Positions 37,003 through 44,242 of a stretch of DNA of 64,000 nt are shown piece by piece. The stretch comes from a cyanobacterium PCC 7702 (GTDB taxonomy: Bacteria; Cyanobacteriota; Cyanobacteriia; Cyanobacteriales; Nostocaceae). The position numbers were made by a program, and so were the translations under genes. The notes under the pieces are model-generated. The model did no database searches, was not told where the DNA came from, and was given only the letters and a program-made list of their open reading frames with translations. Location of the stretch: positions 2,226,769-2,290,768 of the forward strand of contig KB235926.1 of NCBI GenBank assembly GCA_000332255.1. Reading direction: 5' to 3'. The first letter of the stretch is position 1, and each line of letters opens with the position of its first letter.

Positions 37003-38025
37003 ATGTCTGACCTTCCTTTCACATTAGATCAGTTACGTATTCTGAAAGCGATCGCCGTAGAAGGGAGCTTCAAGCGTGCTGCTGATAGCCTCTACGTCTC
37101 CCAACCCGCCGTTAGCTTACAGGTACAAAACCTGGAACGACAACTAGATGTCCCCTTATTCGACCGTGGAGGACGCCGCGCCCAATTAACCGAAGCAGGA
37201 CATCTACTCCTAAGCTATGGAGAAAAAATCCTCAGTCTGTGCCAGGAAACCTGTCGCGCCATCGAGGATCTGCAAAATCTTCAAGGCGGTACCTTAATTG
37301 TCGGAGCTTCTCAAACCACAGGCACTTATCTTTTGCCTCGGATGATCGGCTTGTTCAGACAAAAATACGCGGATGTGGCAGTGCAGCTGCACGTCCACTC
37401 TACCCGTCGAACTGCCTGGAGTGTAGTGAACGGACAAGTGGATCTGGCAATCATCGGCGGCGAAATCCCTGCTGAGTTGGCAGAATCTTTGGAAATCATT
37501 CCCTATGCCGAAGATGAATTAGCTCTGATTCTACCTGTGTTCCATCCCTTTACCAAACTTGAAACCATTCAAAAAGAAGACCTATATAAACTGCAATTCA
37601 TAGCCCTTGATTCGCAATCGACAATCCGCAAGGTCATAGACCAGGTTTTAGCACGCCACGATATCGATACACGGCGTTTGAAAGTGGAAATGGAACTCAA
37701 TTCTATAGAAGCAATTAAAAATGCTGTGCAATCTGGCTTGGGAGCTGCCTTTGTCTCTACCTCCGCAATTGCTAAAGAATTGCAAATGGGTATACTCCAC
37801 TGTGCTCCCATTGAAGGTGTCACGGTCAAGCGAACGCTATGGCTGATTTTTAACCCCAATCGCTATCGCTCCAAGGCAGCAGAAGCTTTTAGCCGAGAAA
37901 TTCTACCTCAGTTTGCTGCCCCAGGATGGAATATCGACGTGTTAAAATCGTCACACCATCACAGAAACATAGCCATCAATACAACCGTAGATACAGACAC
38001 GTCATCCCCAACTGACGAAAGTTAA
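37003..38025 (+). CDS. rbcR: LysR-type regulator RbcR
   Basis: 340 residues. The N-terminal winged helix-turn-helix ([40 protein letters not shown], about 6-45) and the LysR effector domain (about 95-300) are intact. The sequence closely resembles the cyanobacterial RbcR/CcmR-NdhR group, and RbcR is the likelier because of the conserved [19 protein letters not shown] helix and the neighbouring NDH-1 and NnrU genes. RbcR activates carbon-fixation genes, including rbcLS. The last 35 residues ([20 protein letters not shown]) form a disordered His/Thr/Ser-rich tail. Confidence 0.88.
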
Positions 38026-38298
38026 AATTTGATCGTTGGTCATTTCATAAGGAGCTAGCGCCGTGGTGAGGCAAGCCCGCAACAACAGGGAGTTCCTCCC
38101 CCAGCCTCCTTACCCCTAATTTCTAGAGGAACCCCAAGCCCCAAACAAGGGGTGCTAAAGGCAGGGTGCGATCGCCAAAAAACCTAAGCTGCAGACGCCT
38201 TCTCGGTCGTTTTCCCTCAGGATGTTCATTGGCGTTCGCAAACTATTAAAAAATGTGGACCATTAACTATTAACTAGGGACTACAGACTACAAAAAAT

Positions 38299-39669
38299 AT
38301 GGAAATTTACTGCACTCGTCCCGGTTGCCCCCATCCGCAAAACTATTTCCGAGATCTAGACGACCACTCCACCCTCAGAACAGTGCAGCAAAAATACTGT
38401 ACCAGTTGCGGTATGCCTCTGATTTTAGCCGTTCGCTATCTACCAACAAAGTTGCTGGGGCGTGGAGGCTTTGGAGCAGCTTTTTTAGCACGCGATCGCT
38501 ATACCCCCGGAATGCGTCCGTGCGTGGTCAAACAATTCCAACCTGCTGGCAATTTAACCCCTACCCAACTACAACTAGCCCAAGATTTATTTGAGCGAGA
38601 AGCAGCAGTTCTAGAACAAATAGGTACCCAACACGAGCAAATACCCGATCTGTACGCTTTTTTCCCAGTCGTAGTTCCTAGCTTGCTACAGCCACAAAAG
38701 CAGGAGCAATTTTTTTACATTGTCCAAGAATACATCGACGGACAAAATCTCGATCAGGAATTAGCCCAAAAAGGCAAGTTTTCGGAAACGGAAGTACTGG
38801 AAGTATTGCAAGAAATATTGAAGATATTACAATTTGTTCACCACAAAGGCATCATTCACAGAGATATCAAACCTTCCAACATTATGCGCCATCGCAATGG
38901 CAAACTCTATTTGTTAGATTTCGGTGCAGTCAAGCAAGTAGCTAATGTCCCTTCCCAAGAAAAAACCGCCTCCACAGGAATTTATTCTCTGGGCTTTGCA
39001 CCACCAGAACAAATGTCCGGAGGACAAATATTCCCATCAACAGATTTATACGCCTTGGCAGTGACGGCAGTGACGTTGCTCACGGGTGAAAAAAACGTCA
39101 CCCAGCTTTTTGATGTCTGCAGCAACCAATGGAAGTGGCGCGATCGCGCTGCGGTTAGCCCCCATTTGGCTAATGTTCTCGACAAAATGCTTTCACCTGC
39201 TGTCAACCAACGCTTTCAATCCGCCCAGGAAGTTTTAGATGCTCTCAATGCACCGCTACAACAGGTTCTACCCCCAAAACTCCACCAAAAACACAAACTA
39301 CAATCACCCCAGCAACACCCACCCTTCTCTGTTTGGGAAATTTTAGCCAGTGCAGGATTTAGCGGTGCTGAAGGTGCCTTGCTCGCCATTGCCCTTTACA
39401 GTTTATCTTCATCTCCCATCATCACGCTCCTTACATCGGCATTTTTCTTAGGAATACTCATTTTTGCCCAAACCCGACGCTGGATTGAAAAATGGGATCT
39501 GTTAATTATTCCCACTATTACTTTAGCCATTATTTTTTTTATCCCCCTCTTGCATGCAGGTCTTACCTTTGAGCAAACTATTATTTTATCCTCTGGTGCC
39601 GGATTAATAGCAATTGCAGTTACAGCCCTATTTCGTCTGGTTTATAAATTATTATCTTTAATTTTTTAA
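38299..39669 (+). CDS. Membrane-anchored Ser/Thr protein kinase with N-terminal zinc ribbon
   Basis: 456 residues. An N-terminal zinc-ribbon-like segment (CTRPGCPHP...KYCTSCGMPL, about 4-38) leads into a Hanks-type kinase domain (about 50-318): glycine loop LGRGGFGAAFLARDR, Lys in CVVKQF, catalytic loop HRDIKPSN, DFG in LLDFGAVKQ, and APPEQM. Four hydrophobic segments follow (about 355-455), so the kinase is held in the membrane by its C-terminus. All catalytic residues are present. Three membrane-tethered solute-binding proteins are encoded directly downstream on the same strand; the first begins 26 bases after the kinase stop. I infer a shared role in sensing. Confidence 0.93.
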   Translation: MEIYCTRPGCPHPQNYFRDLDDHSTLRTVQQKYCTSCGMPLILAVRYLPTKLLGRGGFGAAFLARDRYTPGMRPCVVKQFQPAGNLTPTQLQLAQDLFEREAAVLEQIGTQHEQIPDLYAFFPVVVPSLLQPQKQEQFFYIVQEYIDGQNLDQELAQKGKFSETEVLEVLQEILKILQFVHHKGIIHRDIKPSNIMRHRNGKLYLLDFGAVKQVANVPSQEKTASTGIYSLGFAPPEQMSGGQIFPSTDLYALAVTAVTLLTGEKNVTQLFDVCSNQWKWRDRAAVSPHLANVLDKMLSPAVNQRFQSAQEVLDALNAPLQQVLPPKLHQKHKLQSPQQHPPFSVWEILASAGFSGAEGALLAIALYSLSSSPIITLLTSAFFLGILIFAQTRRWIEKWDLLIIPTITLAIIFFIPLLHAGLTFEQTIILSSGAGLIAIAVTALFRLVYKLLSLIF

Positions 39670-39694
39670 AAAAAATTCTCGATTGGATTTATAT

Positions 39695-41095
39695 ATGTCC
39701 GCTAAAAATGAAACTACTATTTTCTTTTTATCTCTATTAATTACGTTGGGGTTGCTAGGGATTGGAATTTGGTGGTTGAAAGACAAAATTTGGTTAAAAA
39801 CAACTAATAATCAAGAGCTTCAAGAGCGCATTAGTTTTGGAGAAAAATCTTTTCTCAAAAGTAATTCTGTTGCCAAAAAAGAAGCTATAGCAGCACTAAA
39901 GGCAGGTAATTTTCCCCAAGCAGTTTCTAATCTGGAAACAGCACTGCAATTGCAAAAAAATGATCCAGAAGCATTGATATTTCTCAATAACGCTCGCATC
40001 GGCTCCAAAAAAAGCTACGCGATCGCCACCTGCTTACCTCTGGGTACCGATGTGAATGGTTCTTTAGAAATTTTACGCGGAATTGCCCAAGCCCAAAACG
40101 AAATTAATGCTGCTGGAGGAATTAAAGGAATACCACTAAAAGTAGGAATAGCAAATGATGATAACAATCCAGAGATTGCCAAACAAATTGCCAAAGTTTT
40201 AGTCGAAAATGAGCAAATACTAGGCGTAGTGGGACATTTCACCAGCGACGTTACCTTAGCAGCAGGAACTGTTTATACCTCTGGAAAACTGGTAGCCATT
40301 TCTCCTACAAGTACTTCTGTAAAAATTTCTAACTTTAGCCCTTACGTTTTTCGCACAGTTCCCAACGATTTTATAGCAGCGCGAGCTTTAGCCAAGTACA
40401 TGGTAGAAAATTTACGACAAAAAAATGTCGCAGTTTTCTTCAATAGTGAAAGTGGCTATAGCCAATCCTTAAAATCTGAGTTTGTTTCCTCAGTTTCTTT
40501 AGAAGGTGGACAAGTTTTCAATGAATTTGATTTTTCTCAACCGGATTTTAGTGCTGCCAAAAGCGTGGATCAAGCAGCAAAAGAAGGCGCAAAAGTCTTA
40601 ATGTTAGCTTCTGATACCAATACTTTAGATAAAGCACTGCAAGTAGTGCAATTAAACCAAAAACGTTTCCATCTTTTGGCGGGGGATGACGTTTATACCC
40701 TTAAAACCCTAGAAATAGGACGAGAACAAGCAGCAGGAATGGTGTTGGCTGTTGCTTGGCATATAGATGCTTTTCCTAAATCCAATTTTCTCCGTCAATC
40801 CCGGAAATTATGGGGTGCTGATGTCAGCTGGCGCACGGCTTTAAGTTATGATGCCACCATCGCTTTGATTGAAGCATTAAAAATTAACCCCACGCGTGCG
40901 GGTGTGCAAAAAGCCCTGCTTGCACCCAACTTTTCCCCCACAGGCGCTTCTGGTTCCATCCGGTTTTTGCTCTCAGGCGATCGCAATGCTTTCGTCCAAC
41001 TTGTCAAAATTATCCCTAGAAATCCTTCTCGCTCTGGTACTGGGTTTGACTTTGTGCCAATTTCACTTTTAGCTGCTAAAAAATCCTTCAATTAA
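39695..41095 (+). CDS. Membrane-tethered PBP1-type solute-binding protein with TPR-like insert
   Basis: About 466 residues from the ATG at 39695 (a TTG four codons upstream is the alternative). Residues about 8-28 are a single hydrophobic anchor (IFFLSLLITLGLLGIGIWWL). A TPR-like helix pair follows (AIAALKAGNFPQAVSNLETALQLQKNDPEALIFLNNA, about 60-95), then a complete type-1 periplasmic ligand-binding domain of the Leu/Ile/Val family (KIGVANDDNNP-like start; EIAKQIAKVLVENEQILGVVGHF, TSTSVKISNFSPYVFRTVPND). No permease or ATPase genes are adjacent. The protein probably binds an amino acid or similar ligand outside the membrane and signals rather than transports (inference). Confidence 0.87.
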   Translation: MSAKNETTIFFLSLLITLGLLGIGIWWLKDKIWLKTTNNQELQERISFGEKSFLKSNSVAKKEAIAALKAGNFPQAVSNLETALQLQKNDPEALIFLNNARIGSKKSYAIATCLPLGTDVNGSLEILRGIAQAQNEINAAGGIKGIPLKVGIANDDNNPEIAKQIAKVLVENEQILGVVGHFTSDVTLAAGTVYTSGKLVAISPTSTSVKISNFSPYVFRTVPNDFIAARALAKYMVENLRQKNVAVFFNSESGYSQSLKSEFVSSVSLEGGQVFNEFDFSQPDFSAAKSVDQAAKEGAKVLMLASDTNTLDKALQVVQLNQKRFHLLAGDDVYTLKTLEIGREQAAGMVLAVAWHIDAFPKSNFLRQSRKLWGADVSWRTALSYDATIALIEALKINPTRAGVQKALLAPNFSPTGASGSIRFLLSGDRNAFVQLVKIIPRNPSRSGTGFDFVPISLLAAKKSFN

Positions 41096-41166
41096 CCAGT
41101 TCTTAACTTCCATATATTAAATTGATTGGAATCATTGCTTCATATCAAAAAATATTAACAACTGTG

Positions 41167-42201
41167 ATGTCTAAAAAAAATGAAACTGTAGTTTTAGTTT
41201 TAACTTTGATCGTTACTTTCGGATTAACGAGCAGTATATTTTTTTGGTTAATAAAGAATTCTGGTATTAAATTATTCAGCCTTAACAACTCATCTCAAAC
41301 GCTTAAACAACCCAGTAGCATTAATACTTTTGCTGAAGTTACTAACGTACCTTCAGGCTTATTTAACTACGGTGGTAGCACAACTTGGGCGCCCATTCGT
41401 AAAGAAGTCGATCCAATAATTCAAACTGTCTTCCCCCAATTTCAGCTCCGCTATACAGATCCAACCACTGGCGCTCCTGGTTCCGGAAGTGGAATTAAGA
41501 TGCTGTTAAACAATCAGCTTGCGTTTTCTCAGTCATCACGCCCAATTAAAGATGAGGAATTGAAACAAGCGCAACAGCGGGGTTTCACCCTGCAAGAAAT
41601 TCCAGTAGCAATTGATGGTATTGCAATTGCAGTTCATCCAAATCTTAGTATTTCCGGTTTAACTCTTTCCCAACTCAAAGATATCTACACTGGTAAGGTA
41701 ATCAATTGGCAAAATTTAGGCGGACCGAATTTAAAAATCAGACCTTATTCTCGCCGTCAACAAGAGGGAGGCACTGTAGAATTTTTTGATGAAAATGTTT
41801 TAGAACAAGCAAAGTTTGGCGCTAACGTCAAATTTATCTCCACTACAACCCAAGCTTTAAGAGAAGTAGCCAAAAATCCTGGAAGTATTTACTACGCTTC
41901 CGCTGCCGAAATTATCGGACAGTGCGGAGTTAAGCCTTTACCATTGGGACGCAAAAGCGATCGCTTGGTTCCTCCTTATCAAGAACCTTTTATTCCTCCT
42001 TCTCAATGTCCGCAAAAACGCAACCAACTTAATACAGCTGCTTTTAAAAGCGGCGAATATCCCATTACTCGGAGATTATTCGTCATTGTTAAACAAAATC
42101 ACCAAAGCGACCAGCAAGCAGGAGAAGCTTACGCTAACTTGCTCCTCACTTCTCAAGGCCAAGAATTAATTTCCAGAGCTGGATTTATTAGAATTCGCTA
42201 A
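41167..42201 (+). CDS. Membrane-tethered PstS-like substrate-binding protein (copy 1)
   Basis: About 344 residues from the ATG at 41167; earlier in-frame codons do not improve the start. The N-terminal anchor (VVLVLTLIVTFGLTSSIFFWLI) is followed by a type-2 periplasmic binding fold of the PstS family: FNYGGSTTWAPIRKEVDP, GAPGSGSGIKML, QLAFSQSSRPIKDEEL, IPVAIDGIAIAVHPNL, YTGKVINWQNLGG and YPITRRLFVIVKQN. The phosphate-type GSGSG and SSRP motifs are present, so an oxyanion ligand is plausible. It resembles the next protein throughout, indicating tandem duplication. It lacks neighbouring pstCAB genes. Confidence 0.9.
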   Translation: MSKKNETVVLVLTLIVTFGLTSSIFFWLIKNSGIKLFSLNNSSQTLKQPSSINTFAEVTNVPSGLFNYGGSTTWAPIRKEVDPIIQTVFPQFQLRYTDPTTGAPGSGSGIKMLLNNQLAFSQSSRPIKDEELKQAQQRGFTLQEIPVAIDGIAIAVHPNLSISGLTLSQLKDIYTGKVINWQNLGGPNLKIRPYSRRQQEGGTVEFFDENVLEQAKFGANVKFISTTTQALREVAKNPGSIYYASAAEIIGQCGVKPLPLGRKSDRLVPPYQEPFIPPSQCPQKRNQLNTAAFKSGEYPITRRLFVIVKQNHQSDQQAGEAYANLLLTSQGQELISRAGFIRIR

Positions 42202-42286
42202 TTGTTTTAGTTGATGGACAATAATTATTAGTTTGAGTTATTTTTTTACAGTCTAAAAATATCAATTAATACTTAGGTTTCTTTCT

Positions 42287-43339
42287 ATGACCCAAAAAAA
42301 AGAAACACCAATTTTAGTATTATCCTTGTTAATTACGTTAGGAATTCTCGCTGCTGGTTTTTGGTGGTTTACAAGAAAAACTGACTTGAATTTACATCTG
42401 CTTTCCAAATTTCCATCGACTAACTCTAGTCGCGATTTTAGCAAATTAGAGCCCCATGGGAAAACTTTTGCTTCTGTACCAAATGTACCCATAGGAACGT
42501 TTAATTACGGAGGAAGCACTTCTTGGGCTCCAATTCGACTTACTGTTGACACCGCAATACAAGCGGCGCGACCAGAGTTTCAGTTGCGATATGTAGAACC
42601 TAACAACGCAGCTCCTGGTTCTGGTACCGGCATCCAAGCTTTAATTGACGGTAAACTAGCATTTGCCCAATCCTCTCGACCAATCTTGGATGAAGAGTTA
42701 GCTCGTGCTCGACAGCGTGGATTTAGCCTACAACAAATTCCTGTAGCGATCGACGGTTTAGCAGTAGCAGTAAATCCCAATCTTTATATTCCAGGACTAA
42801 CAACAGAGCAGTTGAAGTCGATTTACACTGGCAAAACTACAAACTGGAGTCAGCTGGGAGGTCCAAACATTCCTATCAAAGCATATTCCCGTCACCTTAG
42901 CGACGGGGGTACAGTAGAGCTATTTTGGCAAGAAATCCTAGGCGGTCAACCTTTCGGAGCGAATGTAGAGTTTGTTTCTACTACCACCCAAGCTTTACAA
43001 AAAGTGGCTGCTAATGTTGGTGGCATATACTACGCTTCAGCTCCTGAAGTCGTACCCCAATGTTCAATCAAGCCCTTGCCGTTGGGGCGAACGCAAGGGG
43101 AATATGTTCCTCCCTACCAAGAGCCATTTGTTCTCCCTTCTGAATGTCCTGGTAAGCGGAACCGATTGAACATTGAGGTTTTCCAGTCAGGAAAATACCC
43201 TATCACCCGCAATCTGTTTGTGGTGGTCAAACAGAATGCTCAACCACAAGAGCAAGCGGGTATTGCTTATGCCAATTTACTGCTGACCGAACAGGGACAA
43301 GAACTTATTTCCAAAACTGGGTTTGTCAAAATTCGCTGA
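42287..43339 (+). CDS. Membrane-tethered PstS-like substrate-binding protein (copy 2)
   Basis: 350 residues. The N-terminal anchor (PILVLSLLITLGILAAGFWWF) is close in pattern to that of the two preceding binding proteins. The PBP2 domain parallels copy 1 motif by motif: FNYGGSTSWAPIRLTVDTAI, GSGTGIQALIDGKLAFAQSS, RPILDEELARARQRGFSLQQ, IPVAIDGLAVAVNPNLYIPG, IYTGKTTNWSQLGGPN, YPITRNLFVVVKQN. It ends LLLTEQGQELISKTGFVKIR against LLLTSQGQELISRAGFIRIR in copy 1. The two genes are 85 bases apart. A signalling or storage role next to the kinase is inferred, since no Pst transporter genes are adjacent. Confidence 0.9.
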   Translation: MTQKKETPILVLSLLITLGILAAGFWWFTRKTDLNLHLLSKFPSTNSSRDFSKLEPHGKTFASVPNVPIGTFNYGGSTSWAPIRLTVDTAIQAARPEFQLRYVEPNNAAPGSGTGIQALIDGKLAFAQSSRPILDEELARARQRGFSLQQIPVAIDGLAVAVNPNLYIPGLTTEQLKSIYTGKTTNWSQLGGPNIPIKAYSRHLSDGGTVELFWQEILGGQPFGANVEFVSTTTQALQKVAANVGGIYYASAPEVVPQCSIKPLPLGRTQGEYVPPYQEPFVLPSECPGKRNRLNIEVFQSGKYPITRNLFVVVKQNAQPQEQAGIAYANLLLTEQGQELISKTGFVKIR

Positions 43340-43483
43340 CACCTGTAACGAGCCAGATACCCGTGAAACCTTGCATCTTTTGCCAATAGCTAGCTAGTTG
43401 TGCGGGTGCTTCTCCTTTATTAGGGTAATTTGCACCTTGCCTGTAGCAAGACAACTTTTGCTCGGAACCAGGGCGATCGCGCT

Positions 43484-44242
43484 TTAGCTAGCTCTATTAA
43501 TCGACTCTGCTGGCAAGCAAATTAAATTATCCCCTTGAGTCAGGATTAAGCCACGTTGACGCAATTTGCCCATCAAGCGAGTGACAGTGACACGAGTCGA
43601 ACCAATGGCACTACCGATTTGGGCATGAGTGAGGGGGAAGGGCAAACAATAGCCACGAATGACTTCGGGGTCGGTTTCGCTCATGGCCGGCTCCCCATAC
43701 TCCTCTATCAACAATGTGAGGAATCCTAAGAGTCGATCAATTGTGCGTCGTTGTCCTAAAGCACTGAGCCACAGCAGTTTTCGCTGGTGCTGATACCTGA
43801 AGGCATCCATAACTTCACGACGGAAGTGAGGCCAGTTGTCTAAGTCATGCCAGTACATCCACAGCACCGCTGTTTGATCGACATGAGCGTAGGCTTGCAG
43901 GGTGAACGGTGACTGGGCAACAATTTCAAATGGCTGTCCTGCACCAACAAACCCCAAGAAAGCTTCTTCTGGCGTTCTGTTGATACGCCGAGACGTTAGC
44001 TGACTGGCTGTAGCACTTACTTGGGCTGTTCCTACCATACGGATCGCACCCCTTTGCACCAAATATAGCAATCCAGGTCGGGCTGGAATGCGCTCATCTT
44101 TGCTGAAGGTGCGGCAGCGGTAGTGTTCCTGAGCCCAATCAAGAATCCGTTGCCAAGTTAGAAAAGGCCGTGATGCCTCAGAAAAAGAGGATGGAGATTG
44201 CATAGGTAACAAAGAGCGTTCGGCTGAAGACAAAGACGTCAT
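43484..44242 (-). CDS. Crp/Fnr-family transcriptional regulator (second in window)
   Basis: 252 residues. A divergent N-terminal effector domain (about 45-150, with LYLVQRGAIRMVG and EEAFLGFVGAGQPFEIVAQS) and a C-terminal helix-turn-helix ([24 protein letters not shown], about 204-227) place it in the Crp family. The recognition helix [14 protein letters not shown] resembles that of NtcA ([14 protein letters not shown]), so it may read similar sites. The Met at residue 14 is an alternative start. A perfect GTA-N8-TAC box lies in the divergent promoter region about 125 bases upstream. The ligand is unknown. Confidence 0.88.
   Translation of the reverse strand: MTSLSSAERSLLPMQSPSSFSEASRPFLTWQRILDWAQEHYRCRTFSKDERIPARPGLLYLVQRGAIRMVGTAQVSATASQLTSRRINRTPEEAFLGFVGAGQPFEIVAQSPFTLQAYAHVDQTAVLWMYWHDLDNWPHFRREVMDAFRYQHQRKLLWLSALGQRRTIDRLLGFLTLLIEEYGEPAMSETDPEVIRGYCLPFPLTHAQIGSAIGSTRVTVTRLMGKLRQRGLILTQGDNLICLPAESINRAS

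Follow-up and report, generated by a model that had tools for sequence, protein, structure and literature searches.

Why should the gene for a membrane-bound Ser/Thr kinase be followed at once by genes for three ligand-binding proteins, with no transporter encoded beside them? The question is raised by positions 38299-43339 of a 64,000-nucleotide stretch of the genome of cyanobacterium PCC 7702 (contig KB235926.1; the whole stretch is referred to here as the window). An earlier note on this DNA had described a kinase gene followed by genes for one PBP1-type and two PstS-type binding proteins, and four co-directional open reading frames (ORFs) of these kinds are indeed present, all on the plus strand, as are their parts and the LysR-family gene placed below. 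No permease or ATPase ORF is found in 37003-44242, and the co-encoded permease and ATPase of an ATP-binding cassette (ABC) importer are thus missing from that interval. We consider that the locus encodes a split receptor Ser/Thr kinase that responds to anchored nutrient-binding proteins, rather than part of a pump, and put the probability of this at roughly 0.8.

According to this model, the kinase would be cytoplasmic and held on a four-helix membrane domain, lacking an outer sensor of its own, and the three binding proteins would be tethered, N terminus inside, by one shared type of helix, with the ligand-binding parts exposed in the periplasm. The two-lobed domain would close on capturing a small nutrient; the most likely candidates are, for the PBP1 protein, an alpha-amino acid and, for the PstS-like pair, phosphate or a comparable oxyanion. 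Closure would be relayed by the tether to the kinase's own membrane domain and alter kinase activity. Physical contact between the parts, the ligand classes, activation, the direction of signalling and the targets are matters that we infer.

Conservation of the gene order

Evidence for a functional link comes first from comparison of 242 cyanobacterial genomes, in which orthologues, called at set cut-offs, of the kinase were found in 160, of the PBP1 protein in 153 and of the PstS-like proteins in 107. Of the 85 genera with a kinase orthologue, 83 were examined for the neighbourhood of the kinase gene; some loci were picked for holding a PBP1 gene, but the genus table spans nearly all kinase genera and the bias is therefore small. 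In 52 of the 83 genera the kinase gene either continues into a binding-protein gene as a fusion or has one co-directionally just 3' of it, a recurrence that makes a chance arrangement untenable. The earlier note had staked its interpretation on the order being conserved among relatives, as it is here. The gaps between kinase and binding-protein genes are mostly below 60 base pairs (bp) and several of the genes overlap; in the window, 25 bp separate the kinase and PBP1 genes, ~70 bp the PBP1 and first PstS-like genes and 85 bp the two PstS-like genes. Named genomes carrying the cluster include Nostoc linckia z4, Nostoc punctiforme NIES-2108 and Anabaena azotica.

Natural fusions of kinase and binding protein

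A second line of evidence is provided by natural fusions. In three genomes of one genus (g102; loci L177, L178 and L179) the kinase is fused to a PstS-like domain, and the fusion gene occupies the LysR (RbcR)-adjacent place where other genomes have separate genes, whilst kinase::PBP1 fusions are found in family f36 (L082-L084, L189 and L191). Pfam confirms both domains in the fusion proteins. A kinase and a ligand domain in one polypeptide, absent from the window where the genes are split, are thus found together in L177-L179, L082-L084 and L191. On the kinase tree the kinase::PstS-like proteins are nested among split kinases from the taxonomic family to which they themselves belong (clade support 100) and four of the five kinase::PBP1 proteins fall in another clade (support 98), L189 being unplaced; separate clades imply at least two fusion events within this kinase family. 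Further fusions of both kinds occur in a more distant kinase clade, and some genomes of family f36 hold both a fused and a split kinase. Given the conserved gene order and the fusions to both kinds of binding protein in separate clades, the earlier proposal that the binding proteins report to the kinase, not to a transporter, is very probably right.

The layout of the fusion proteins offers a clue to how a signal might travel. In all of them a proline-rich or otherwise low-complexity linker is followed by a single membrane helix, the only one in the protein, either the binding protein's own anchor or its replacement, and the four-helix domain of the kinase is absent. This suggests that in the fused form the anchor itself can carry the signal.

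Other outputs are also found joined to these ligand domains. At L095:12588-15200 a CHAT (caspase-like) domain is fused, with a single membrane helix between, to a PBP1 domain of the same family, and at L086:7973-11572 a Peptidase_C14 caspase domain is fused to TPR repeats and a PBP1 domain. CHAT domains are fused to PstS-like domains at L180:9726-11828 and L182:6390-8525, so that the same output domains recur with either binding-protein fold, and in family f36 (L183-L187, for example L183:3158-4936) the PstS-like domain is fused to a receiver-like N-terminal region with no Pfam match. One apparent fusion was rejected: a 1011-residue open frame in the present genome (G000:C1:392835, locus L006) proved to be a chance match beside a repeat. 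The same locus carries, at L006:2715-3257 on the minus strand, a tandem array encoding MSESVDSTEGGCCSRASETSGISGACWR repeats.

A membrane anchor shared by two folds

Hydropathy places one N-terminal transmembrane helix in each of the three binding proteins, and by sequence this is an uncleaved anchor lacking the lipobox of a lipoprotein in all three. In the PBP1 protein it spans 39695-39784 (MSAKNET..LLITLGLLGIGIWWLKDK). The earlier note had remarked on the likeness of these short segments (LITLG-like, followed by WW or FW), and the likeness is real: despite the different folds of their ligand domains, the PBP1 protein and the second PstS-like protein (B) are 55% identical over their first 33 residues. 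The homology also goes beyond chance. A profile hidden Markov model built from 45 PBP1 anchors only matches 157 of 174 PBP1 N termini and 116 of 135 PstS-like N termini but just 5 of 2,530 other, unclassified ORFs; three of these hits fall in fragments of the genes under study and a fourth resembles another binding protein. A different binding-protein-like gene, at L182:229-1110, encodes a similar anchor (MSQKSAPPPIVFILIFLALIGGGYWFF).

As the tethers are far more similar than a membrane helix requires, a shared membrane partner would be the natural reason, and we infer that the anchors of both folds have one such partner. This bears on the notion that the binding proteins are membrane substrates or scavengers that take no part in signalling, the fused forms being derived and unrepresentative of the split genes. 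The fused forms are few (8 proteins in two taxonomic families within this kinase clade) and their lack of the four-helix domain sets them apart from the split kinases; yet the kinase::PstS-like genes of L177-L179 share the syntenic position of the split genes, and anchor homology across two folds points to a common partner in the membrane. We regard a non-signalling role as very improbable.

The binding proteins and their candidate ligands

The PBP1-type (type I) protein (466 residues, 39695-41095; PF13458, 1.4e-35; model predicted local distance difference test score (pLDDT) 90.8) is modelled as a two-lobed domain joined by a short TPR-like neck to a single membrane helix. Its start, listed as TTG 39683, should be ATG 39695, and that of PstS-like protein A was reset to ATG 41167; with these corrections both proteins open with the family anchor motif. 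The neck (residues 59-102, 39869-40000) is supported by helices in the model, an SHNi-TPR match and TPR matches in a relative. Among the families ranked by Foldseek, to which the fold comparison was confined, the best matches to the PBP1 protein are for the most part proteins that bind leucine, alanine or valine (Z ~40, 2.5-2.9 A over ~340 residues).

In LivJ, the ligand is held by its alpha-carboxylate and alpha-amino groups through S79, T102 and E226. Alignment with Escherichia coli LIVBP (1z15) places these at S184, T207 and D331 of the PBP1 ligand-binding domain (40013-41068), the contacts being retained with Asp in place of Glu at the last. Unfused relatives of the PBP1 protein keep S184 in 130 of 133 cases, T207 in 118 of 133 and D331 in 117 of 133, and 22 of 23 fused relatives have Thr or Ser at position 207. 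Because LivJ-type contacts are retained, an alpha-amino acid is our leading guess for the PBP1 ligand.

The PstS-like domains have a type II fold related to that of phosphate-binding proteins. Protein A (41167-42201; PF12849, 1e-31) is 60% identical to protein B (42287-43339; PF12849, 5e-28), and both carry the anchor described above. Four anion-site motifs are conserved in B (GGST, GSG, SSR and GGT), and the GGST, SSR and GGT motifs of the PstS-like domains match those of phosphate-binding proteins, which suggests a phosphate-type oxyanion as ligand, albeit less certainly than the ligand class proposed for the PBP1 protein. The two proteins score 148 and 149 bits against the PstS model TIGR02136, below its cut-off of 206.6.

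Could the binding proteins instead feed ABC permeases encoded elsewhere, with the kinase regulating or merely accompanying that transporter? Transporter genes can be scattered in cyanobacteria, those of the Nat system being an example, and the genome contains PF02653 permease genes that have no PF13458 binding-protein gene beside them. Transport partners appear, however, to be available already. All three of the other PF13458 proteins in this genome have signal peptides with a lipobox, and two of them adjoin permeases, neither of which is true of the PBP1 protein in the window; the third may serve the permeases that lack a neighbouring binding protein. PstS-type genes are likewise present elsewhere, one of them beside a PstC-like gene. 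Although no proof, the presence of these transport-type proteins makes those of the window spare to transport. The window proteins also carry a conserved, uncleaved anchor in place of a lipoprotein signal, and fusion to this kinase, to CHAT and caspase domains and to other cytoplasmic domains is typical of sensors. Together with the comparative evidence this favours the distinction that the earlier note had drawn, and we think it unlikely that the proteins serve a distant transporter.

The kinase

The product of 38299-39669 (456 residues; AlphaFold2 pLDDT 81.7) is a Hanks-type membrane-bound Ser/Thr kinase, with a match to PF00069 (6.8e-35) and the catalytic Lys, Glu, HRD Asp, Asn and DFG Asp. 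These residues (K78, E101, D189, N194 and D207, in a catalytic domain at 38437-39252) are all five kept in 158 of 158 relatives. The catalytic domain is preceded by a four-cysteine prefix (C5, C10, C34 and C37; 38299-38421) that matches NF045510 at 49.9 bits, above the cut-off of 24, and that is probably metal-binding. Its cysteines are nearly invariant, being conserved in all aligned kinases that reach the region.

At the C terminus, hydropathy and the model define four transmembrane helices (residues 345-455, 39331-39663) with conserved residues A352, F354, G356, E358 and Q391, and loops of 3-8 residues between the helices in the model. The kinase of the window has no extracytoplasmic domain and so lacks the usual means of binding an external ligand itself; in the split form its four-helix domain is probably the docking site for the anchors of the binding proteins.

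Several observations weigh against a split receptor of this kind. In 31 of the 83 genera the kinase gene showed no binding-protein gene next to it, a figure that includes four kinase genes at contig ends, to be counted as unknown rather than negative; in two of these genera (L033 and L053) another contig starts inside the kinase gene and continues into binding-protein genes. Given these genera, the kinase may additionally work with partners encoded elsewhere or serve other functions. PBP1 orthologues are also found away from the kinase (L048, L050 and L066, for example), and one PstS-like paralogue in the present genome is unlinked (L003). T207 is often Ser in the fused relatives, and the permeases lacking an adjacent PBP1-type protein make a second use in transport possible.

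The genera without an adjacent gene, about one third of the total, fit also with a kinase that senses some other cue, through the four-cysteine site (metal or redox) or the state of the membrane, the binding proteins being neighbours by virtue of shared expression. Near-invariance of the cysteines is in keeping with this idea. Shared expression alone would hardly explain why members of this kinase family have become fused to both types of binding protein, however, and we consider the idea less likely even than service to a distant transporter, if not quite as improbable as a non-signalling role for the binding proteins.

Relationship to known systems

The system closest in working mode to the proposed split receptor is GlnH-GlnX-PknG of actinobacteria, in which a periplasmic binding protein that is not part of a transporter reports amino-acid availability to a Ser/Thr kinase, the genes being adjacent and conserved (PMC6069109, PMC9769921). 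In that system the kinase PknG is soluble, GlnH is attached as a lipoprotein, and a separate protein with two helical domains in the periplasm, GlnX, acts as the relay (PMC6069109, PMC9769921). Reporting to the kinase across the membrane is common to both, in the present case as a prediction from sequence, but the binding proteins of the window are self-anchored and of two folds, and the kinase has its own four-helix domain. Two features that were examined place the locus outside the actinobacterial system. One is the PknG/GlnX architecture, with rubredoxin and TPR regions in the soluble kinase and four-helix bundles in the periplasmic part of the relay; the window kinase instead has four transmembrane helices and no TPR match, and no GlnX-like ORF is present in 37003-44242. 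The other is the lipoprotein nature of the binding protein.

Within cyanobacteria, kinases of the cbSTKII-ANF type (alr0344, Ava_2791 and CwatDRAFT_0902, for example), with kinase and ANF (PBP1) domains in one protein, were tabulated in 2007 with no comment on function (PMC2176072). Their architecture is like that of the fused relatives described here; the window differs in its split genes, four-cysteine kinase and additional PstS-like proteins. The cbSTKI-TM kinases of the same survey have the layout of the window kinase, with three to six transmembrane helices after the kinase domain, and no partner or signal was proposed for them; nor did the survey connect kinases with PstS-like domains or with binding-protein genes nearby (PMC2176072). 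SpkD, SpkB and other Synechocystis kinases were considered as possible named orthologues of the window kinase; the reviews consulted give no binding-protein link for them. The earlier description of the module as novel therefore holds in part: kinase::ANF fusions and GlnH-GlnX-PknG were known already, but in the open-access literature we found neither kinase::PstS-like fusions nor a paper joining the kinase and the split binding-protein genes as a receptor.

The individual binding domains have familiar counterparts. Fold and alpha-amino-acid contacts are common to the PBP1 protein and the LivJ/LivK-type proteins of ABC importers (3td9, 4nv3 and 1z15), although the former has no permease or ATPase, an uncleaved anchor and a TPR-like neck. 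Similarly, the type II fold and anion-site motifs are shared with PstS and SphX, from which the window proteins are distinguished by scores below the TIGR02136 cut-off, by anchoring and by the lack of Pst transporter genes. Class C G-protein-coupled receptors (the metabotropic glutamate receptors) also match in fold and use a PBP1 domain as the ligand sensor of a receptor, but the output in the window is a Ser/Thr kinase, with no seven-helix G-protein coupling.

Neighbouring regulators and wider significance

The four genes lie between two regulators. A LysR-family gene (37003-38025; PF03466/PF00126) ends 273 bp upstream of the kinase gene; its exact LysR subtype was not placed by NCBIfam, and it is labelled RbcR-like from position and inspection of the sequence. 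In 62 of the 83 genera a LysR gene immediately precedes that of the kinase orthologue, and a link to the control of carbon fixation is possible. Downstream of the binding-protein genes, at 43484-44242, is a convergent gene for a Crp-type regulator, and in genera whose kinase gene has no adjoining binding-protein gene (L202, L206 and L214, for example) a similar regulator gene also comes after it.

More tentatively, and with rather less confidence than we place in the split receptor itself, cyanobacteria may possess a modular receptor kit, in which one conserved membrane-anchor helix carries either of two unrelated folds onto cytoplasmic outputs as different as two clades of kinase and the CHAT, caspase and receiver-like domains, with the split-form kinase reading several anchored proteins and combining amino-acid and phosphate-type signals through a common four-helix dock.

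Signals are unknown for nearly all cyanobacterial Ser/Thr kinases, and one widespread kinase, found in 160 of the 242 genomes, can now be tied to candidate ligands, whose testing is made simple by the natural one-piece versions. The locus would add a second means, independently assembled, for bacterial binding proteins to drive a Ser/Thr kinase with no transporter involved. If it is true that phosphate and amino-acid signals meet at a kinase encoded next to RbcR, then, speculatively, that kinase might serve as a nutrient integrator beside the control of carbon fixation.

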